From: Anaerolineaceae bacterium
Lineage (GTDB): Bacteria; Chloroflexota; Anaerolineae; Anaerolineales; Anaerolineaceae
Length of the DNA: 64,000 nt
Direction: 5' to 3'
NCBI GenBank assembly: GCA_016841365.1
Contig: JAENZI010000002.1
Span: 124,001-188,000 of the forward strand
Of this stretch, positions 42,467-51,930 are shown in pieces (positions within the stretch are counted from its first letter, which is position 1; every line of letters begins with the position of its first letter). The notes beneath the pieces are model-generated. The model saw only the letters and a list, made by a program, of their open reading frames with translations, had not been told where the DNA came from and did no database searches. Both the position numbers and the translations under genes were made by a program.

Positions 42467-42727
42467 TTAGTCTAAATCAAAGCCTTCTCTGGGGTTGTTT
42501 TCATTTATACGGCATTGATTTTGATTTAACAGATCGTATGGGTTGATACTTTCACCATCAACCAGGAATCCTGGAGATGATAAAAATTGATGTTTGTCCA
42601 TTATTTTTTGTTCTTCATCGGAATCCAAATCGATTCTTGAATAAGGGATATTGTTTTCATCCAGATATGAAAGAATTTTTTTGCTCCGCCGGCAGCCTTT
42701 CAATGGCAGGATTATGATAGTCTTCAT
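42467..42727 (-). CDS. Glutaredoxin-like protein with CRRS active site
   Basis: 86 residues. The opening KTIIILPLKGCRRSKKILSYLDENNIPYSRIDLDSDEE follows the glutaredoxin beta-alpha-beta start, with GCRRS where a CxxC or CxxS motif sits, so it would be a monothiol form. The conserved TVP element is replaced by SSPGFLVDG (Ser-Pro in place of Val-Pro). The C-terminal 20 residues are polar. AAGGA lies 6 bases before the ATG. It converges on the frameshifted reductase gene. Confidence 0.7.
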   Translation of the reverse strand: MKTIIILPLKGCRRSKKILSYLDENNIPYSRIDLDSDEEQKIMDKHQFLSSPGFLVDGESINPYDLLNQNQCRINENNPREGFDLD

Positions 42728-42770
42728 TTTTATTCCTTGGTCTTGTCAATGGATGTTTTAATGATTTTTT

Positions 42771-43433
42771 TTAATCTACTGAAGAAAGTTCAGTAATAAT
42801 GGGCGTATGGTCAATTTGTGGGTGATCATTAAAATAGAAATGGGGTGATCGGAATTCCGGAACTTTGTTTCCCTGTGAATCCACAGGGATCAACAGTTGA
42901 TACGATGGAGGTACTTCACTCCAGTGTAATAAAATAGCAGATGAATCATCCACGGCTAATAACATCTGACCCAAGTCATCGTATTAAGATAGATGTGTGC
43001 CGTCTGGCAGCAGGTTCTTTGCGTCCGCATACTCAGTTAAGGTCATAATTTTGAGATTGGGTAAGTCTTGATATCTAATGCCACTTTGAGTTTTCGTAAT
43101 CAGGGTATAGCCGTCTTTTATCCGAATAAACTGGACATTTACATTTATTTCTTGATGGTGTGCGACCCGGCTAGGGAGAACAGCGTGAACGCTTTTTGAG
43201 TTCAGGGCTTGCAAAGCTGATTCAGAATTATTAAACTGAAGAGCGTTTAGATTTAGACCTTTGTTATAAAGATATTGAATATATGGTTTCATTGTAGGGC
43301 AATATCCGATGATGACTTGTGTTTGTGTAGGTGTAACTTGTTGTTCTTTTATTAGTGTGCAACTACTCAAAATCATCATGAAAGCCAGAAGAATAATGCA
43401 AGCTTCATATTTTAATCTCGATAGAAATCGCAT
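42771..43433 (-). pseudogene. Lipoprotein (solute-binding-like) interrupted by an in-frame TAA
   Basis: ATG 43433 (GGGAG 7 bases upstream) begins a signal peptide with lipobox ILSSC, then VIIGYCPTMKPYIQYLY...ALQALNSKSVHAVLPSRV, reminiscent of periplasmic binding proteins that recognise a small anion or peptide. TAA at 42984-42986 stops it after 149 residues. The same frame then continues YDDLGQMLLAVDDSSAILLHWSEVPPSYQLLIPVD (in pieces) to 42771, clearly the rest of the same domain. One nonsense change therefore splits a protein of about 220 residues. Confidence 0.75.
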
Positions 43434-43492
43434 CAATGATCTCCCAATTTAATTTGACATGAAAAAATATTAATATGTTTGTGATAGTATTT

Positions 43493-43620: not shown

Positions 43621-44709
43621 TTAATCTTCTTCAAAGTAACTATCTGGTATCATCTCAGACCCATAACTAGTCGATCTTGTTTTTACTTGTGCTGGAACTG
43701 CCCAAAAGCCTTTCTTCTTAAGATATTTTCCAAATGCAACCAGGCCTAACATAATTGGAACCTCCCAAAAGAGACCCATTGTGGTTCCTAATGCGGCTTG
43801 TGAGCCAACCCCATAAAGTGCGACAGCAGTGGCAATTGCGATTTCAAAATGACTTGATGAACCGATCAAAACAGTTGTTATGGCTTCTTTGTATCTTAAT
43901 TTGAATAATTTTGTCATCATAATGTTGTAACCAACAACAATCACGAAACCTAACAGCAATGGGATTGATACCAATAAGAGCTCATTAAAATTATTCAGTA
44001 ACACCATACCATTAAGCGAAAAGAGCACGATAAGTGTTGTCAGTAATGCAATTATTGAGATTTTCTCGACGATAGGTCTGTAGACACCCTCGAACCACGC
44101 TTTACCTTTTGTGCGAGTTAGTAGATTTTTACTGAGTATGCCCAATACCATGGGCAATCCGATAAATACCAAACCTGAAATAACCAATAAACTACGGTCA
44201 ATTGGGATGCCCTGTAAACCTGTTAAAAAGGTGACAACCGGAACGTACAGAAACAAAATAGTAATTGTATTCAGACTGGTGTTGACGATATTTTGTTCCT
44301 GGTTGCCATTTGCCATTCTTCCCCATACGAGTACCATCGCAGTACACGGGCTTGAGCCAAGGAGAATGACAGCGACAAGCAGTTGTGGGTAATCCTTGAG
44401 AAACAGTGTCGCTAAACCTGCCGTAACAAGTGGTGCAACGATCCAATTTGAAACCATGGTCATGAGGATTGGTTTGGGGTTTTTGCCAATTTTCTTAATC
44501 TCAGAAAATTGAATATTTAGCATCGCTGGGTACATCATTAAAAACAGGCATATTCCGATTGGAATTGATATACCTCGAATTTGCCAGGAATCGATCGTTT
44601 TGCTAATTCCTGGGAAATAGATTGAAAGCAGGATGCCTGCTCCCATGCAAAGCGCAATCCATAGCGCAAGATATTTTTCGAAAACACTTATTTGTTTTTC
44701 TTTAGTCAT
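43621..44709 (-). CDS. acr3: Arsenite efflux permease, ACR3 family
   Basis: 362 residues, about ten membrane helices. The ACR3 hallmarks are present: Cys122 in GSSPCTAMVLVWGRMANG and Glu289 in GSSSHFEIAIATAVALYG, the two residues needed for arsenite transport in characterised members. It exports arsenite or related trivalent oxyanions. Start taken at ATG 44709, preceded by GAGAGG; the frame is open further upstream without a ribosome site. It lies 77 bases after arsR, in one operon from the promoter at 45246-45273. Confidence 0.93.
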   Translation of the reverse strand: MTKEKQISVFEKYLALWIALCMGAGILLSIYFPGISKTIDSWQIRGISIPIGICLFLMMYPAMLNIQFSEIKKIGKNPKPILMTMVSNWIVAPLVTAGLATLFLKDYPQLLVAVILLGSSPCTAMVLVWGRMANGNQEQNIVNTSLNTITILFLYVPVVTFLTGLQGIPIDRSLLVISGLVFIGLPMVLGILSKNLLTRTKGKAWFEGVYRPIVEKISIIALLTTLIVLFSLNGMVLLNNFNELLLVSIPLLLGFVIVVGYNIMMTKLFKLRYKEAITTVLIGSSSHFEIAIATAVALYGVGSQAALGTTMGLFWEVPIMLGLVAFGKYLKKKGFWAVPAQVKTRSTSYGSEMIPDSYFEED

Positions 44710-44786
44710 AAAATTACCTCTCAAATGGTTGGTGGTTTGTGGGTTGGCGCGCGACTTTAGCATGTCAAAAGTCGCACTAATGGGGT

Positions 44787-45146
44787 CTATTTATGATTTT
44801 CCCCCGTAAATTTTGGACCACAAGAATTAAGACAGGGTTGTATCCGTGAGACATCAAAAAAACCATTAATGTGTTTTGTTAATTTGGATATAACATCAAA
44901 GTTAATAGAATAGTAGATCCATCTAGCATCATTCTCATCTCGTTTGGATTGGAGGATATTCGCATCGCACAAGACGGATAGATGGTGCGAAATCAGGTTC
45001 GGTGCAAGAGATAATGATTTTCCTAACTCGCAATTGCACTGCACACCATCCATGATTTTTTCAATTAACATTATTCGGTTGGGTTCGCTCAATATTTTTA
45101 GATAGTGTGCAAATTCTTCAGTTTCCATTTTCTCCATTTTTCTCAT
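44787..45146 (-). CDS. arsR: ArsR family metalloregulator
   Basis: About 119 residues with the winged helix-turn-helix core LKILSEPNRIMLIEKI...LSLAPNLISHHLSVLCDANIL. A CxC pair (QCNCEL) sits at the start of the sensing helix, as in ArsR proteins that bind trivalent arsenic or antimony, and a second Cys pair lies near the C-terminus (QPCLNSC). Metalloid binding should release DNA and derepress acr3 and possibly the divergent redox cluster. Several starts are possible (GTG 45155, ATG 45146, 45137, 45128). Confidence 0.9.
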   Translation of the reverse strand: MRKMEKMETEEFAHYLKILSEPNRIMLIEKIMDGVQCNCELGKSLSLAPNLISHHLSVLCDANILQSKRDENDARWIYYSINFDVISKLTKHINGFFDVSRIQPCLNSCGPKFTGENHK

Positions 45147-45200
45147 TTCCGACACCGATGATAACTCAAGTCGTATTCGAAAGTTGTTCTATGTAAGTGT

Positions 45201-45228
45201 TTGCTTAATCTATCGGCCACAGTATAAT
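45201..45228 (+). promoter_or_regulatory. Candidate rightward promoter toward the thioredoxin-ferredoxin cluster
   Basis: TTGCTT (45201-45206), 16-base spacer, TATAAT (45223-45228). It would read toward 45511 with a leader of about 275 AT-rich bases that hold no other gene. The -35 is imperfect. Confidence 0.45.
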
Positions 45229-45230
45229 AG

Positions 45231-45246
45231 TTCAATGACCATTGAA
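45231..45246. promoter_or_regulatory. Probable ArsR operator
   Basis: TTCAATGACCATTGAA, arms TTCAATG/CATTGAA with a 2-base centre, lies directly after the leftward -10 box and next to the rightward one. ArsR/SmtB operators are imperfect 12-2-12-like inverted repeats of this type. Outer AGTATAA/TTATACT arms are also mirrored but offset by 3 bases. Confidence 0.65.
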
Positions 45247-45273
45247 TTATACTGGTGTCAATCTGTTTGTCAA
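45246..45273 (-). promoter_or_regulatory. Promoter of arsR-acr3
   Basis: Minus-strand TTGACA (45268-45273), 16-base spacer, TATAAT (45246-45251). The probable operator overlaps the expected start point, so bound ArsR would block transcription. Confidence 0.8.
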
Positions 45274-45510
45274 GGGACATTTTGTACTTATTTCGATTTG
45301 ATTGTTTTTTCTTAACCACGCTTCTCCATCAGTTTTAAGGATATCGTGACATACATCATATTGACAGAAGGTTAAATCAACACTAATACATGCGTAAAAA
45401 TATATATATAGAAATCTGAATATATAAATGAGTGTATTAGAGTTTGGCTTATTAATTTTATGTTTCTTATCTTGAGAAAGCCGATTTTATTTCTAAAAAA
45501 GGATTAACAA

Positions 45511-46179
45511 ATGAATAAGTGGTTAAGTCAACTTGTGGCAATATTTTCGATCATCTTATTTGGGTTGTTTTTTCATGAAATGCAAATTATTCATGTATCT
45601 GCACAGGGTAATGCTCCCGATGTCAACATCTATATGTTTTGGGGGGAGGGTTGTCCTCATTGCGAAGTGGCTAAGCCGGTTTATCAGGGCTTGGCGGAAA
45701 GCGATCCGAGAATCAATTTCTATGGGTTTGAGGTGTATCATCATCCTGAAAATCTGGATCTTTTTAGAGAATTTGCCGCACTCCATGGTGGTGAGCCGCA
45801 AGGTGTGCCGACAGTATATGTTGGGGACCGATATTGGGTTGGGTATTCAGAAAATATAAAAAATGCGTTGGAATCTTATCTCAAGTATTGTCTTGCGGGA
45901 GGTTGTTCTGACCCCGGAACAGTTATCCCATCAGCAGAAATGATTCAAGAAATTGATCAACAAAACTTAAGTTATGATTTGGAAGAAAATTCTGGCGAGA
46001 ACAAAATACCCAGGTTTCCCATAGTGGGTGGTTTAATAGATTCTTCAAATTCTCTGGTCAAGATCATATTATGGGTTATTGGCGGCTCTATTGGGATTGG
46101 CGTGATTGCCGCTGTTGTCTCTCGTTCTGTAAAGCCTGGTACAAAAAAGAAGGAAAGCAGAAAAAGACATAAAAAATGA
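45511..46179 (+). CDS. Membrane-anchored thioredoxin-fold protein with CPHC site
   Basis: 222 residues. N-terminal hydrophobic segment (signal or anchor, about 7-22), then a thioredoxin-like domain with WGEGCPHCEVAKPV (C48, C51) and cis-Pro in GVPTVYVG (P100). A second pair, YCLAGGCSDPG (C127, C132), closes the domain. A C-terminal membrane helix (LVKIILWVIGGSIGIGVIAAVV) and a very basic tail follow. The domain should face outside the membrane. It is a paralog of the N-terminal part of the protein at 47463. First gene of the cluster divergent from arsR. Confidence 0.8.
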   Translation: MNKWLSQLVAIFSIILFGLFFHEMQIIHVSAQGNAPDVNIYMFWGEGCPHCEVAKPVYQGLAESDPRINFYGFEVYHHPENLDLFREFAALHGGEPQGVPTVYVGDRYWVGYSENIKNALESYLKYCLAGGCSDPGTVIPSAEMIQEIDQQNLSYDLEENSGENKIPRFPIVGGLIDSSNSLVKIILWVIGGSIGIGVIAAVVSRSVKPGTKKKESRKRHKK

Positions 46180-46225
46180 ATTCAATAAATTACTTATTTA
46201 CATTGAGCATCTCAGGAGATAACAA

Positions 46226-46282
46226 ATGAGTGTAAATCCGACGCCAGTTTGTTCTTGCCATAAATGGCCTCCGTTATTTTAA
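46226..46282 (+). CDS. Possible 18-residue Cys-containing peptide
   Basis: ATG 46226 lies 7 bases after AGGAG, an ideal ribosome site, and encodes 18 residues ending PVCSCHKWPPLF before TAA. The CxCH pattern could bind a metal or metalloid, or the ORF could be a leader peptide for the ferredoxin gene that starts 48 bases later. Too short to judge by sequence alone. Confidence 0.4.
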   Translation: MSVNPTPVCSCHKWPPLF

Positions 46283-46329
46283 TAGCAACAAAAATATTAA
46301 TTAGTGCAAAAAAATTCAAAGGAGTTAAT

Positions 46330-46542
46330 ATGGCGAAAAATTGGTACCCAATAATTGATGAGGATTTATGTATAAATTGCAACACATGCGTGAATTTTTG
46401 TCAGCATAATGTTTATGAAGAAGGGGATGAATTCCCTATTGTGATCAACCCGGAAAATTGTGTCGAATTTTGCCGAGGATGTGGAAAAATTTGTACGGAA
46501 GAGGCAATTTCATACTTCGGTGACAAGTCAATAAAGGAGTAG
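46330..46542 (+). CDS. Small 2[4Fe-4S] ferredoxin
   Basis: 70 residues from ATG 46330, after AAAGGAG. Two cluster motifs: CINCNTCVNFC (x2-x2-x3) and CVEFCRGCGKIC, whose first gap is three residues as in the ferredoxin fusion at 41296. A soluble low-potential electron carrier. Its stop is 2 bases before the HdrA-N-like gene, so the two proteins are probably made together and work as partners. Confidence 0.88.
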   Translation: MAKNWYPIIDEDLCINCNTCVNFCQHNVYEEGDEFPIVINPENCVEFCRGCGKICTEEAISYFGDKSIKE

Positions 46543-46544
46543 TA

Positions 46545-46904
46545 ATGTCAAAAAAAGGTTTTTTGTTATGTGTTTGTCAGGGCACCTGCCCTTCATTTCA
46601 AGAGATGAATATCTTTGAAGTGGGCAATGCCCTCAGGCGAGAAGAATTGATCGATTATGTAGCAGTTCATCCGCAACTGTGTGCATCTGATGGGGATATA
46701 TTCCTTGAAACTTTGTTAGAAGGTGATTCAACCGCTGAGCTGTATGTTGCGGCTTGCGACCCGCTAATGCAAGCGAAAATGTTCAGGGATGCCATGGAGA
46801 AGGCGGGCTTCAATAAAGACAATCTTTATGGGGTCGATATTCGAAACATGACCACTGAACAAGCGGTTGCCGCGATCACAGAACTGATCTCGTCTGAAAA
46901 ATAA
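46545..46904 (+). CDS. Stand-alone HdrA N-terminal-like protein
   Basis: 119 residues. It aligns by eye with the N-terminal domain of heterodisulfide reductase subunit HdrA: a Cys pair near the start (LLCVCQGTCPSF), a Cys in HPQLCASDG, then YVAACDPLMQAKMFRDAMEKAGF and VDIRNMT, matching the VVAACSPRxHExxFRxxxxxAG and NIREH pattern. Four Cys could hold a cluster. HdrA normally carries this domain fused to a flavoprotein; here it is alone, next to a ferredoxin. It may pass electrons or bind a cluster for a disulfide-reducing partner (inference). Confidence 0.75.
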   Translation: MSKKGFLLCVCQGTCPSFQEMNIFEVGNALRREELIDYVAVHPQLCASDGDIFLETLLEGDSTAELYVAACDPLMQAKMFRDAMEKAGFNKDNLYGVDIRNMTTEQAVAAITELISSEK

Positions 46905-46919
46905 TTCATTAATTTCCCT

Positions 46920-46950
46920 GACAGGCAGGTGGATTAATCGCCTGCCTGTC
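46920..46950 (+). other. Intercistronic 10-bp hairpin
   Basis: GACAGGCAGG (46920-46929) and CCTGCCTGTC (46941-46950) pair perfectly, just before the AAAGGTGG ribosome site of the NifX-like gene. No T run. It could protect mRNA, act as a weak terminator, or hinder initiation. Confidence 0.5.
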
Positions 46951-46964
46951 AAAAGGTGGTAACC

Positions 46965-47285
46965 ATGAGAATTGCACTTGCTGTAAAAGGTGCGGGGTTA
47001 GGTGCCTGGCTTGATGATGATTTTGCTCGTTGTGGGCACATCATGATTGTGGGCGATAATAATCGGTTTAGTTCCTGGCCCAATCCATACCGTGATGATA
47101 ACGAAGATCAAGAAATGTTATTAGCAGAGCGAGTGATTGGGGAGAATGTTGATATTTTGATTACTGGCAGCGTGACTCAACAGGCTCAAGTTAAACTTGA
47201 AAATGCGAATGTGACGATTATGCTACGAAAAGGGGGAACTGTCTTTGACCTGGTTGAGGAAGCAAGAAGCACTATAGATAATTAA
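46965..47285 (+). CDS. NifX/NafY-like (dinitrogenase Fe-Mo cofactor domain) protein
   Basis: 106 residues. The fold signature is visible: MRIALAVKGAGLGAWLDDDFARCGHIMIV, then ENVDILITGSVTQQAQVKLENANVTIML, as in small NifX/VnfX/NafY-type cofactor-binding proteins, many of which are not tied to nitrogen fixation. No nif genes are present. It may bind an Fe-S or metal-sulfur intermediate in this cluster (inference). ATG 46965 is preferred to GTG 46956, which overlaps the ribosome site. Confidence 0.8.
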   Translation: MRIALAVKGAGLGAWLDDDFARCGHIMIVGDNNRFSSWPNPYRDDNEDQEMLLAERVIGENVDILITGSVTQQAQVKLENANVTIMLRKGGTVFDLVEEARSTIDN

Positions 47286-47315
47286 TCACCGTTTACTCGT
47301 AAAATTGTAATCTCA

Positions 47316-47344
47316 TTGACAAGTTTATTGATAAACGTTATTAT
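47316..47344 (+). promoter_or_regulatory. Promoter with palindromic spacer for the thioredoxin-CcdA gene
   Basis: TTGACA (47316-47321), 17-base spacer, TATTAT (47339-47344). The spacer contains GTTTATTGATAAAC (47323-47336), a palindrome with 6-bp arms, a typical place for a repressor or activator site. It differs from the ArsR operator. Confidence 0.6.
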
Positions 47345-47462
47345 CTGCAAGATAGAAATCGGAAAAAATTAAATAAAGGCCATGTGTGACTTGCCTGATA
47401 TTATAATTTTTGCTGGTATAAGAGCAGTTTCTTGATCATTGTGACTATTGGAGAAGAAGTTT

Positions 47463-48875
47463 ATGGTAATTAGCCAACGCAAAATTCTTTGGATTGTTAT
47501 TCTGTTGATTATCGTAATTTTTATTATTCCCAATGAGAGTGTGTTTGCTTCCTCAGATGAAACTGATGTGAATATTTATTTGTTTTACGGCGAAGGCTGT
47601 CCGCATTGTGCTCAGGCAAAACCGGTTCTGATAGGTATGGCAGAGGAAAACCCCCGGGTTGGCTATTACGATTTCGAAGTTTATTACAATGAAGAAAACC
47701 AAAAAATATTCTTTGATTTTGGTATAGCCTTTGGGATGGAACCCCAATATGTGCCGACGATTTTTATTGGGGAACGGTATTGGGTTGGTTATTCTGAGGA
47801 TATCCGCCTTGAGATTGAAAACTACATTGAGCAATGCCTGAATTCGGGCTGTGCTAATCCGGGTGCTGAAGTGTTAGGGGTTGGTACGCCAGCGGCTGAC
47901 ACATCCACCCCTGAATCTACACCGACTCAGGAAGAGCCGCCAGCTTTTACTGCTACACCATTACCGCAACCTTCCGCTGAGATTGATCCCTCAATTCCTG
48001 GGGGAGAAGAACCGGAAAGGATGATCACGTTGCCCTTAATCGGCACCGTTGATCTCTCCAATCAATCTCTGCTGTTAAGTACGATTTTAATTGCCCTGGT
48101 GGATGGGTTCAATCCCTGTTCGATTTGGGTGCTCTCGATGCTGCTTGCGATCACGTTGAACACGCGGTCACGCAAAAAGGTGCTCATCATCGGGTTTGTG
48201 TTTATTTTTGTAACCGGGTTAATTTACGCGCTGTTCATCGGCGGGCTGTTCACCGTTTTCAAGATCATCAACTTTGTTGGATGGATCCAGTTGATTGTGG
48301 CACTGGTGGCATTGATCTTTGGATTGGTCAATATCAAAGATTACTTCTGGTATAAGCAAGGCCTATCCTTTACCATCAGTGACGAGAAAAAGCCGGGCAT
48401 TTATAAGGGCATCCGGCGTTTGGCTAAAGCCGATGGCTCGATTATCGGATTGATCACTGGCACCGTTGTGCTTGCCGCAGGTGTCTCACTGGTCGAATTT
48501 TCCTGCACCGCCGGCTTTCCTGTTTTGTGGACCAATTTATTGGCTGCGCAAAATGTGTCTGGGTTGGCGTTTGTGGGATTTTTACTGGTGTATATGCTGA
48601 TTTACCAGATCGATGAGCTCGGGATCTTCCTCGTATCCGTATTCACCTTGCGCAAGTCAAAGCTGGAAGAGAAACATGGGCGCATCCTCAAGCTGCTTGG
48701 GGGGATGCTGATGTTGACGCTGGCGGTGGTGATGCTGGTAAATCCGACATTGATGAACAATGTGAACAGTGCACTGCTTGTGTTTGGGATTGCCTTTGCT
48801 GTGGCGGGGCTGGTTTTGCTGGTGCACCGTGTCATCCTGCCGAAATTCAACATCAAGATTGGCTCAGAGGATTAA
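47463..48875 (+). CDS. Thioredoxin-fold domain fused to CcdA/DsbD-like transmembrane domain
   Basis: 470 residues. Signal/anchor helix, a thioredoxin-like domain with YGEGCPHCAQAKPV (C46, C49), cis-Pro in YVPTIFIG and a second pair ECLNSGC-like (about C125, C130), then a Thr/Pro stalk and a six-helix membrane domain with Cys in DGFNPCSIWVLS and VEFSCTAGFPVLW, the two positions used by DsbD/CcdA to carry electrons across the membrane. It should bring cytoplasmic reductant to an extracytoplasmic thiol. ATG 47463 is preferred to TTG 47448, which has no separate ribosome site. Confidence 0.85.
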   Translation: MVISQRKILWIVILLIIVIFIIPNESVFASSDETDVNIYLFYGEGCPHCAQAKPVLIGMAEENPRVGYYDFEVYYNEENQKIFFDFGIAFGMEPQYVPTIFIGERYWVGYSEDIRLEIENYIEQCLNSGCANPGAEVLGVGTPAADTSTPESTPTQEEPPAFTATPLPQPSAEIDPSIPGGEEPERMITLPLIGTVDLSNQSLLLSTILIALVDGFNPCSIWVLSMLLAITLNTRSRKKVLIIGFVFIFVTGLIYALFIGGLFTVFKIINFVGWIQLIVALVALIFGLVNIKDYFWYKQGLSFTISDEKKPGIYKGIRRLAKADGSIIGLITGTVVLAAGVSLVEFSCTAGFPVLWTNLLAAQNVSGLAFVGFLLVYMLIYQIDELGIFLVSVFTLRKSKLEEKHGRILKLLGGMLMLTLAVVMLVNPTLMNNVNSALLVFGIAFAVAGLVLLVHRVILPKFNIKIGSED

Positions 48876-51466: not shown

Positions 51467-51883
51467 CTAATTTGATTCCACCCGGATACCGCTTTCGAGC
51501 AAGCGCCTGACCGAGCAGGCTTTAGCGACTTTGTGCAGCCGGTCCAATTGTTTTGGGTCCAAATCACCTTCGAAATCCACCGTTTCTGTGATGATTTCCT
51601 CATATTGTTGGTCTTCATCGCAGTCGTCACAGTCATCCGCAAAGACCCTGTCATAGGCGGCATCGACGGTAACCCCTTTCAGGGGAATCCCGTGATTGCG
51701 TGCATAAGAATTGACAACAATCGCCGTGCATGAGGCCACACTGGCGAGGAGCATCCCATAGGGGGTCAGTTCGTGTAAGTGCATGATCGGTTCAAGTTCA
51801 TCAGCTGTTTCGTCATGAGGATCTGAGGCTTTGAATTCCGTCCTGAAACTTTTATCCTGATAGACAACAACTCTTTCTGACAT
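51467..51883 (-). CDS. OsmC/Ohr family protein
   Basis: 138 residues. Family landmarks: [17 protein letters not shown] with one active Cys and [17 protein letters not shown] with the second, the pair that reduces organic peroxides in characterised members. An acidic insertion with two Cys (DDCDDCDED) in the middle is unusual and could bind a metal. ATG 51883 is preferred over 51898 because GAAAGGAC precedes it. Upstream gene of the probable osmC-pncB operon. Confidence 0.88.
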
Positions 51884-51930
51884 GGTATGTCCTTTCAATT
51901 AATTTTGTTTTGTTCTTTCTTCTATTGATT

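Follow-up and report, generated by a model that had tools for sequence, protein, structure and literature searches.

Ferredoxin:thioredoxin reductase and ferredoxin-flavin thioredoxin reductase carry electrons from ferredoxin through an Fe-S or flavin protein to the disulfide of a thioredoxin. A different protein with a ferredoxin link is HdrA, whose N-terminal Fe-S cluster, in the passages of PMC9012536 that treat it, owes one of its ligands to a second HdrA subunit and is placed along the path of electrons to free ferredoxin. ArsR genes are known to adjoin hgcAB, according to sections of PMC10349881. Here we describe HDRN, a stand-alone protein corresponding to the HdrA N-terminal domain, and the ferredoxin (Fd) encoded beside it, next to arsR and acr3 genes in a 64,000-nucleotide stretch of the genome of an Anaerolineaceae bacterium (GCA_016841365.1, contig JAENZI010000002.1, positions 124,001 to 188,000; hereafter the window). 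Judging from gene content and predicted structure, the Fd-HDRN pair probably supplies electrons against metalloid stress.

The pair resembles hgcAB, as those sections of PMC10349881 present it, in being an ArsR-linked small ferredoxin gene pair of anaerobes; the partner there is an HgcA-type methyltransferase and here it is HDRN. HgcB was also the top NCBIfam match of the window Fd, at 34.3 bits against a cut-off of 99. By analogy, the logic that we propose for HDRN would resemble that of the two thioredoxin reductases; HDRN differs from them in its HdrA-N fold and lack of a flavin domain, and we claim no homology. Literature searches of open-licence PubMed Central papers found no description of the Fd-HDRN pair.

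Predicted HDRN fold and conserved cysteines

A profile made from four HDRN orthologues, compared with solved structures, matched HdrA chains only (five distinct sequences, best E 3.6e-05). Using a scan of GTDB species genomes that kept 80 of 92 relatives, we assembled, together with the window, a set of 81 HDRN loci. The AlphaFold2 model computed from the resulting 81-row alignment had a predicted local distance difference test score (pLDDT) of 88.9, and seven HdrA chains ranked first when the model was submitted to Foldseek. VIA-align superimposed the model on seven HdrA chains over 116-117 residues with Z scores of 12.4-14.7 and root-mean-square deviations of 2.2-2.4; the next match scored 8.5. 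The protein that the preliminary description called a stand-alone HdrA-N protein is thus predicted to have the whole fold of the HdrA N-terminal Fe-S domain with its CxC...C...C pattern, and it shares four cysteine columns with HdrA. Unlike HdrA, the 119-residue HDRN has no FAD-binding thioredoxin-reductase-like domain and no ferredoxin domain in the same chain, its ferredoxin being encoded by a separate gene, and it scores 22.6 bits against an NCBIfam HdrA model with a cut-off of 1400.

Cysteines 9, 11, 15, 46, and 71 were invariant in all 81 HDRN sequences, an invariance that is partly built into this set, since Cys9, Cys11, and Cys15 lie in the search patterns. A pattern-independent profile search of the class to which Geobacter sp. 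OR-1 belongs returned 16 copies in 15 of 195 genomes (E up to 1e-15); all 16 keep the five cysteines, and the main set already included some of the 15 genomes. When 11 HdrA-type proteins of related organisms were compared, Cys46 and Cys71 were common to all, and the nine that span the N-terminal part all had Cys9 and Cys11 and none had Cys15. HDRN should carry one [4Fe-4S] cluster. As HdrA takes one ligand in trans (in the passages of PMC9012536 cited above), the fifth cysteine of HDRN, Cys15, may complete this cluster within one chain.

Neither Pfam nor NCBIfam has an HDRN-specific model. For the window HDRN, Pfam gave no match and NCBIfam none beyond weak ones to HdrA. Across the set, at E up to 0.1, no Pfam family matched more than three of the 81 sequences; 68 matched an NCBIfam HdrA model (best E 5.3e-10), the HdrA cut-offs being at least 1100 bits.

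We searched the window genome, which is 98% complete, and 25 other carriers, hand-picked for spread, for HdrB and thioredoxin reductase. The window genome had no CCG/HdrB domain match, and neither did 18 of the 25 carriers; the remaining seven, Geobacter sp. OR-1 among them, had some match. HdrB, the partner of HdrA, is missing from the window genome and most carriers tested, and HDRN does not belong to a heterodisulfide reductase here. Some thioredoxin reductase match was present in all 25 carriers, above the cut-off in 21, and we rejected the idea that HDRN replaces thioredoxin reductase as a general rule.

Genomic neighbourhood and spread of HDRN

Neighbouring genes were scored as near when they lay within 3.5 kb of HDRN, and a ring at 4.7-8.2 kb served as a far control in the 30 loci with a full 8 kb on both sides. 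The neighbour families are models made from the loci themselves, by which members of other types are missed; 39 of the 81 loci have a flank shorter than 3.5 kb; and the loci are related to each other, which the Fisher values for near versus far ignore. Fd lay near HDRN in 76 of the 81 loci, 72 of these on the same strand within about 160 nucleotides, and was near in 28 and far in one of the 30 control loci, a significant difference. Eight cysteine columns are conserved in 75-76 of the 76 paired ferredoxins. Two of the five loci without a near Fd (L035 and L038) are truncated at contig ends.

Significant enrichment was also seen for ArsR (near in 46/81 loci; near/far 18/5), thioredoxin (29/81; 13/0), and NifX (21/81; 12/0). 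ArsP-type permeases (27/81; 12/4), small redoxins of the PF13192 type (28/81; 10/3), and CcdA-type proteins (27/81; 10/3) were modestly enriched, and the ABC ATPase was not significantly so (4/6). SufBD-type proteins were near HDRN in eight loci and ArsC, of the one type modelled, in five. A Pfam check of one representative per type gave DsbD_TM (PF02683), Thioredoxin_2, Thioredoxin_3, ArsP_1, and DGC and, for further representatives, CMD, SUFBD_core, Fer2_BFD, TauE, and DUF2703. A CxC motif in ArsR marks arsenite sensing. In 48 loci an ArsR was encoded within 4.5 kb of HDRN, the nearest one carrying CxC in 38. Of the 81 loci, 62 have at least one of four features, namely an ars gene, a permease, a redoxin, or an ArsR with CxC, and redoxins and CcdA lie beside arsenic genes in many.

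The preliminary description had allowed that, were the genes not conserved as neighbours, their grouping would be a chance arrangement. Because the Fd-HDRN pair is conserved and NifX, redoxins, CcdA, and ArsP-type permeases are enriched nearby, this is excluded for the core, which is often linked to ArsR. The full set of five genes (thioredoxin-like trxA, Fd, HDRN, NifX-like, and a thioredoxin-membrane fusion) was seen in the window only; L015 (Brevefilum sp. KA23) has four of the five and lacks trxA. The proposal that all five form one pathway was not supported. No modelled redoxin or CcdA was found within 6 kb in 40 of the 81 loci, some of them on short contigs, and several loci, including L029, L040, L052, and L058, have ArsR, Fd, and HDRN alone of the modelled families.

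Other genes also lie beside HDRN or the pair. Permeases of TauE/SafE appearance adjoin HDRN or Fd-HDRN in L017 (by Pfam) and in L021, L083, and L084 (by clustering or eye), which may point to a sulfur compound in some lineages. Within 3.5 kb of Fd-HDRN, 12 of the 81 loci (for example, L035, L044, L051, L054, L056, L064, L090, and L093) encode DGC-domain (PF08859) proteins, without significant enrichment (4/2). In two metagenome bins (L038:400-2304 and L052:7390-9294), the gene that begins where HDRN ends, or right beside that point, encodes a 634-residue protein that by eye resembles ATPases of the hydantoinase/oxoprolinase type; its translation is possibly coupled to that of HDRN. In two Spirochaetota loci (L014 and L018), the genes after NifX encode a permease in two pieces, an ABC ATPase, and a protein of the SufBD type. 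The complete genome of Thermoanaerobacter wiegelii holds two copies of ArsR-NifX-Fd-HDRN (L059 and L067), and a BFD-like [2Fe-2S] protein (PF04324) is encoded directly after HDRN-Fd at L078:2509-2751 (+).

Carriers of HDRN include Chloroflexota, Geobacter relatives, Thermoanaerobacter, Caldisericota, Omnitrophota, and Thermococcaceae. The labelled rows of an HDRN tree comprise about 20 phylum-level groups, and 11 of the 81 rows fall in no group. The window HDRN belongs to a set of 19 rows with support 100/99, which holds 11 Chloroflexota, three Spirochaetota, two Bipolaricaulota, and two more unlabelled rows. The phylum labels require 27 changes on the tree against a minimum of 19, in a tree of few columns whose deep forks are unresolved and many of whose rows are metagenome bins. 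Transfer of HDRN between lineages is likely. Viral contigs and plasmid records gave no sign of phage or plasmid carriage: 52 viral stretches fit a search pattern and none encodes an HDRN relative, and no plasmid record matched.

A scan of 400 genomes of the phylum found HDRN only in the window's own genome; the two other matches were HdrA-type proteins of 550 and 575 residues. Besides the three HDRN carriers among 60 related genomes, six more matched only through long HdrA-type frames. The arsenate-respiring Geobacter sp. OR-1 has two HDRN copies, one a few genes downstream of arsA-arsD and the other about 13.5 kb further on; its arsenic islands have been published with unnamed open reading frames (ORFs) (PMC4319506).

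The window locus and the thioredoxin-membrane fusion

The preliminary description placed five co-directional genes and a possible 18-codon ORF divergent from arsR-acr3, and we confirmed this arrangement (Table 1). ArsR and ACR3 are encoded by adjacent genes on the same strand and both score above cut-off, as in a classical ars operon. Two nucleotides separate Fd from HDRN. The Fd product exceeds the gathering scores of several Pfam Fer4 models, and the assignment of the NifX-like protein was borne out by its score; it has relatives in loci L002-L004. Matches of the trxA product to glutaredoxin and DSBA were weak and under cut-off.

Table 1. Features of the arsR-HDRN region, numbered from the first nucleotide of the window
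Feature	Position	Strand	Evidence
acr3, ACR3 family arsenite efflux transporter	43621-44763	-	NCBIfam TIGR00832, 294.7 bits (cut-off 282.8)
arsR, metalloregulator with QCNCEL (CxC) motif and C-terminal Cys pair	44787-45152	-	PF01022, 8.5e-08; NF033788, 56.1 bits (cut-off 55)
Palindrome that overlaps the arsR -10 (probable ArsR operator)	45220-45254	.	Inverted repeats I5 and I8
trxA: CPHC thioredoxin-like domain between a hydrophobic N-terminus and a hydrophobic C-terminal anchor (ends by eye)	45511-46179	+	
18-codon ORF MSVNPTPVCSCHKWPPLF	46226-46282	+	Good Shine-Dalgarno sequence
2[4Fe-4S] ferredoxin (Fd), partner gene of HDRN	46330-46542	+	PF13237, 4.5e-08, above gathering score
HDRN, stand-alone HdrA N-terminal-domain protein, 119 residues, five invariant Cys (9, 11, 15, 46, 71)	46545-46904	+	
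NifX-like (Nitro_FeMo-Co) protein, GxGLGAW subtype	46965-47285	+	PF02579, 37.7 bits (cut-off 26.3)
Promoter-like TTGACA-17-TATTAT ahead of the fusion gene	47316-47344	+	11/12, consensus match only
Thioredoxin-membrane fusion: CPHC thioredoxin domain and multi-helix membrane domain with NPC and SCTAGFPV motifs	47463-48875	+	

A shared operator had also been proposed for the two divergent directions. The arsR promoter matches the consensus at 12 of 12 positions (TTGACA-16-TATAAT, 45273-45246, minus strand), and its -10 element lies inside the palindrome; by eye, a mirror TATAAT is present on the plus strand at 45223-45228. The promoter scan found no plus-strand promoter at this palindrome directed to trxA, so that ArsR control of both directions is inferred. 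An 11/12 promoter-like site precedes the fusion gene, which may form a separate transcript; over the whole region, 10 promoter-like sites were found and 10.8 expected, so there is no excess. A crude pattern scan for short peptides ending in C-x-C-H/K found no relative of the 18-codon ORF in the loci, returning the window's own copies and scattered ORFs that we judged unrelated by eye.

The description of the last gene as a thioredoxin-CcdA fusion stood for its N-terminal part. Residues 33-129 are predicted to fold as a thioredoxin (Z up to 11.6), with CPHC as the CxxC motif. The membrane domain has CcdA-like motifs, and its identity as CcdA is unconfirmed. The protein had no match to DsbD_TM (PF02683) at E up to 1. 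An hhalign comparison of four fusion sequences with CcdA of related loci gave a probability of 1.6%; with 23 fusion sequences, the usable proteins among 30 candidates (29 loci and the window), against 32 CcdA sequences, the probability was 18%, with NPC aligned to the SPC motif of CcdA. An AlphaFold2 model from four fusion sequences was too poor (pLDDT 60) for a judgement on the membrane domain; the fold matches listed for it were nearly all thioredoxin-type and so speak neither for nor against CcdA, and their titles included entries 2puk and 6gnd of the two ferredoxin-linked thioredoxin reductase systems. The window genome also has a DsbD_TM protein whose gene lies at another site.

The fusion protein had matches in 25 of the 60 related genomes, a few of them partial, and only three of those genomes have HDRN. 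In two genomes of the same genus (loci L117 and L122), ACR3 precedes one or more thioredoxin genes, the fusion, and an APH-type gene, and no Fd, HDRN, or NifX match was found within the 3.8-4.1 kb examined. An APH-type gene follows the fusion in the window too and is a neighbour in L120, L124, and L137. The trxA product resembles the first part of the fusion joined to a single C-terminal anchor, and a similar tandem is present in L117 (sequence compared by eye). As the same-genus genomes hold ACR3, thioredoxin, and fusion genes without Fd, HDRN, and NifX, the window seems to join two units, one of ars and thioredoxin genes and one of Fd, HDRN, and NifX. Among the 13 Chloroflexota loci, the fusion gene lies within 6 kb of HDRN in four: the window, L015, L016, and L022.

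Downstream of acr3, at 42467-43436 (-), the window has one ORF that resembles a lipoprotein and one that resembles a glutaredoxin (PF00462, just under cut-off), with a short ORF between them, perhaps part of an interrupted gene. An ORF at 51467-51898 (-) looks, by eye, like an OsmC type; this type lies within 3.5 kb of HDRN in six of the 81 loci.

Candidate functions of the Fd-HDRN pair

We favour, tentatively, the explanation that Fd and HDRN form an ArsR-linked electron-transfer module, with electrons passing from Fd to HDRN and feeding thiol or arsenic redox chemistry. In this scheme, ArsR would keep the Fd and HDRN genes off until arsenite or another thiol-binding agent enters the cell. 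Reduced Fd would then pass single electrons to the [4Fe-4S] cluster of HDRN, a step suggested by the position of the same domain on the ferredoxin side of HdrA (as the passages of PMC9012536 cited above describe it), which also makes the ferredoxin electron source of the preliminary description reasonable. Cys15 would have one of two roles, as the ligand that completes the cluster within a single chain or as a reactive thiol. HDRN would go on to reduce the disulfide of a partner; the likeliest partner is a thioredoxin-like protein, often one encoded nearby. Thiols or arsenic species would thereby be kept reduced, and ACR3 or ArsP would export the reduced arsenic species.

Several observations weigh against such a module. 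Three loci (L060, L069, and L085) have no Fd nearby, and 19 of the 81 loci have no ars gene, permease, redoxin, or CxC ArsR; seven of these 19 are shorter than 6 kb and five have an ArsR without CxC. The enrichment of permeases, CcdA, and small redoxins reaches p values of only 0.02-0.03 even with relatedness ignored, and that of ACR3 is not significant (near in 16/81; near/far 5/1, p 0.097). HDRN is sporadic, occurring in three of the 60 related genomes and 15 of the 195 in the class of OR-1, and the cysteine invariance is, as stated, partly built in. Since the window genome and most carriers tested encode an ordinary thioredoxin reductase, there is no gap for HDRN to fill.

It is somewhat unlikely, though plausible, that the locus consists of two independent modules, ArsR-ACR3 with thioredoxin genes, as is the habit of the genus, and an Fd-HDRN-NifX cassette, which share a promoter region and no single electron chain. 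The rarity of HDRN among fusion-carrying relatives, the two same-genus loci that hold ACR3, thioredoxin, fusion, and APH-type genes alone, and the promoter-like site of the fusion gene all point this way. The fusion is nevertheless close to HDRN in four of the 13 Chloroflexota loci, though these loci were chosen by HDRN, and other phyla, too, have thioredoxin genes next to HDRN (near in 13 of 30 loci, far in none). We consider doubtful the route of the preliminary description, in which electrons would run from Fd through HDRN and NifX to a CcdA-like membrane domain and on to outward-facing CPHC thioredoxins. CcdA-type and thioredoxin genes are near HDRN in 27 and 29 of the 81 loci, one CcdA representative matches PF02683, and the fusion has two conserved membrane cysteine motifs; against this stand the profile, hhalign, and modelling results for the fusion domain, the many loci that have Fd-HDRN without CcdA, and the lack of HDRN in most fusion-carrying relatives.

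Care of metal or Fe-S clusters, in which HDRN and NifX would bind or repair arsenic-damaged Fe-S or thio-metal clusters with Fd as reductant, seems improbable to us. The NifX-like (21/81) and SufBD-type (8/81) neighbours are consistent with it, as is the fact that the NifX-like protein resembles MrpORP, if very weakly (E 0.02); NifX and SufBD were not found near most loci, however, and we know of no ligand for the GxGLGAW NifX subtype. Clear homology to the HdrA N-terminal domain could also mean that HDRN is a leftover HdrA fragment. We rejected this reading as highly improbable: a short intact protein has long been conserved, with five cysteines kept in all 81 sequences from about 20 phylum-level groups, a ferredoxin and a Cys15 of its own, and 18 of the 25 carriers tested lacking HdrB.

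A bolder form of the favoured Fd-to-HDRN explanation, possible but rather unlikely, is that the two proteins constitute a class of disulfide (or arsenic) reductase that runs on ferredoxin and has so far gone unrecognised. Such a class would be ArsR-induced, would occur in many phyla, and would pair a flavin-free HdrA-N domain with one-electron thiol chemistry at a [4Fe-4S] cluster and Cys15. The cultured carriers Thermoanaerobacterium saccharolyticum and Geobacter sp. OR-1 make the module directly testable. Defence against arsenic and thiol stress has mostly been described through NADPH-, glutathione-, or thioredoxin-driven enzymes. If our explanation is true, it would give a function to a protein family that has no specific Pfam or NCBIfam model and would show how anaerobes use low-potential electrons in arsenic and thiol defence.

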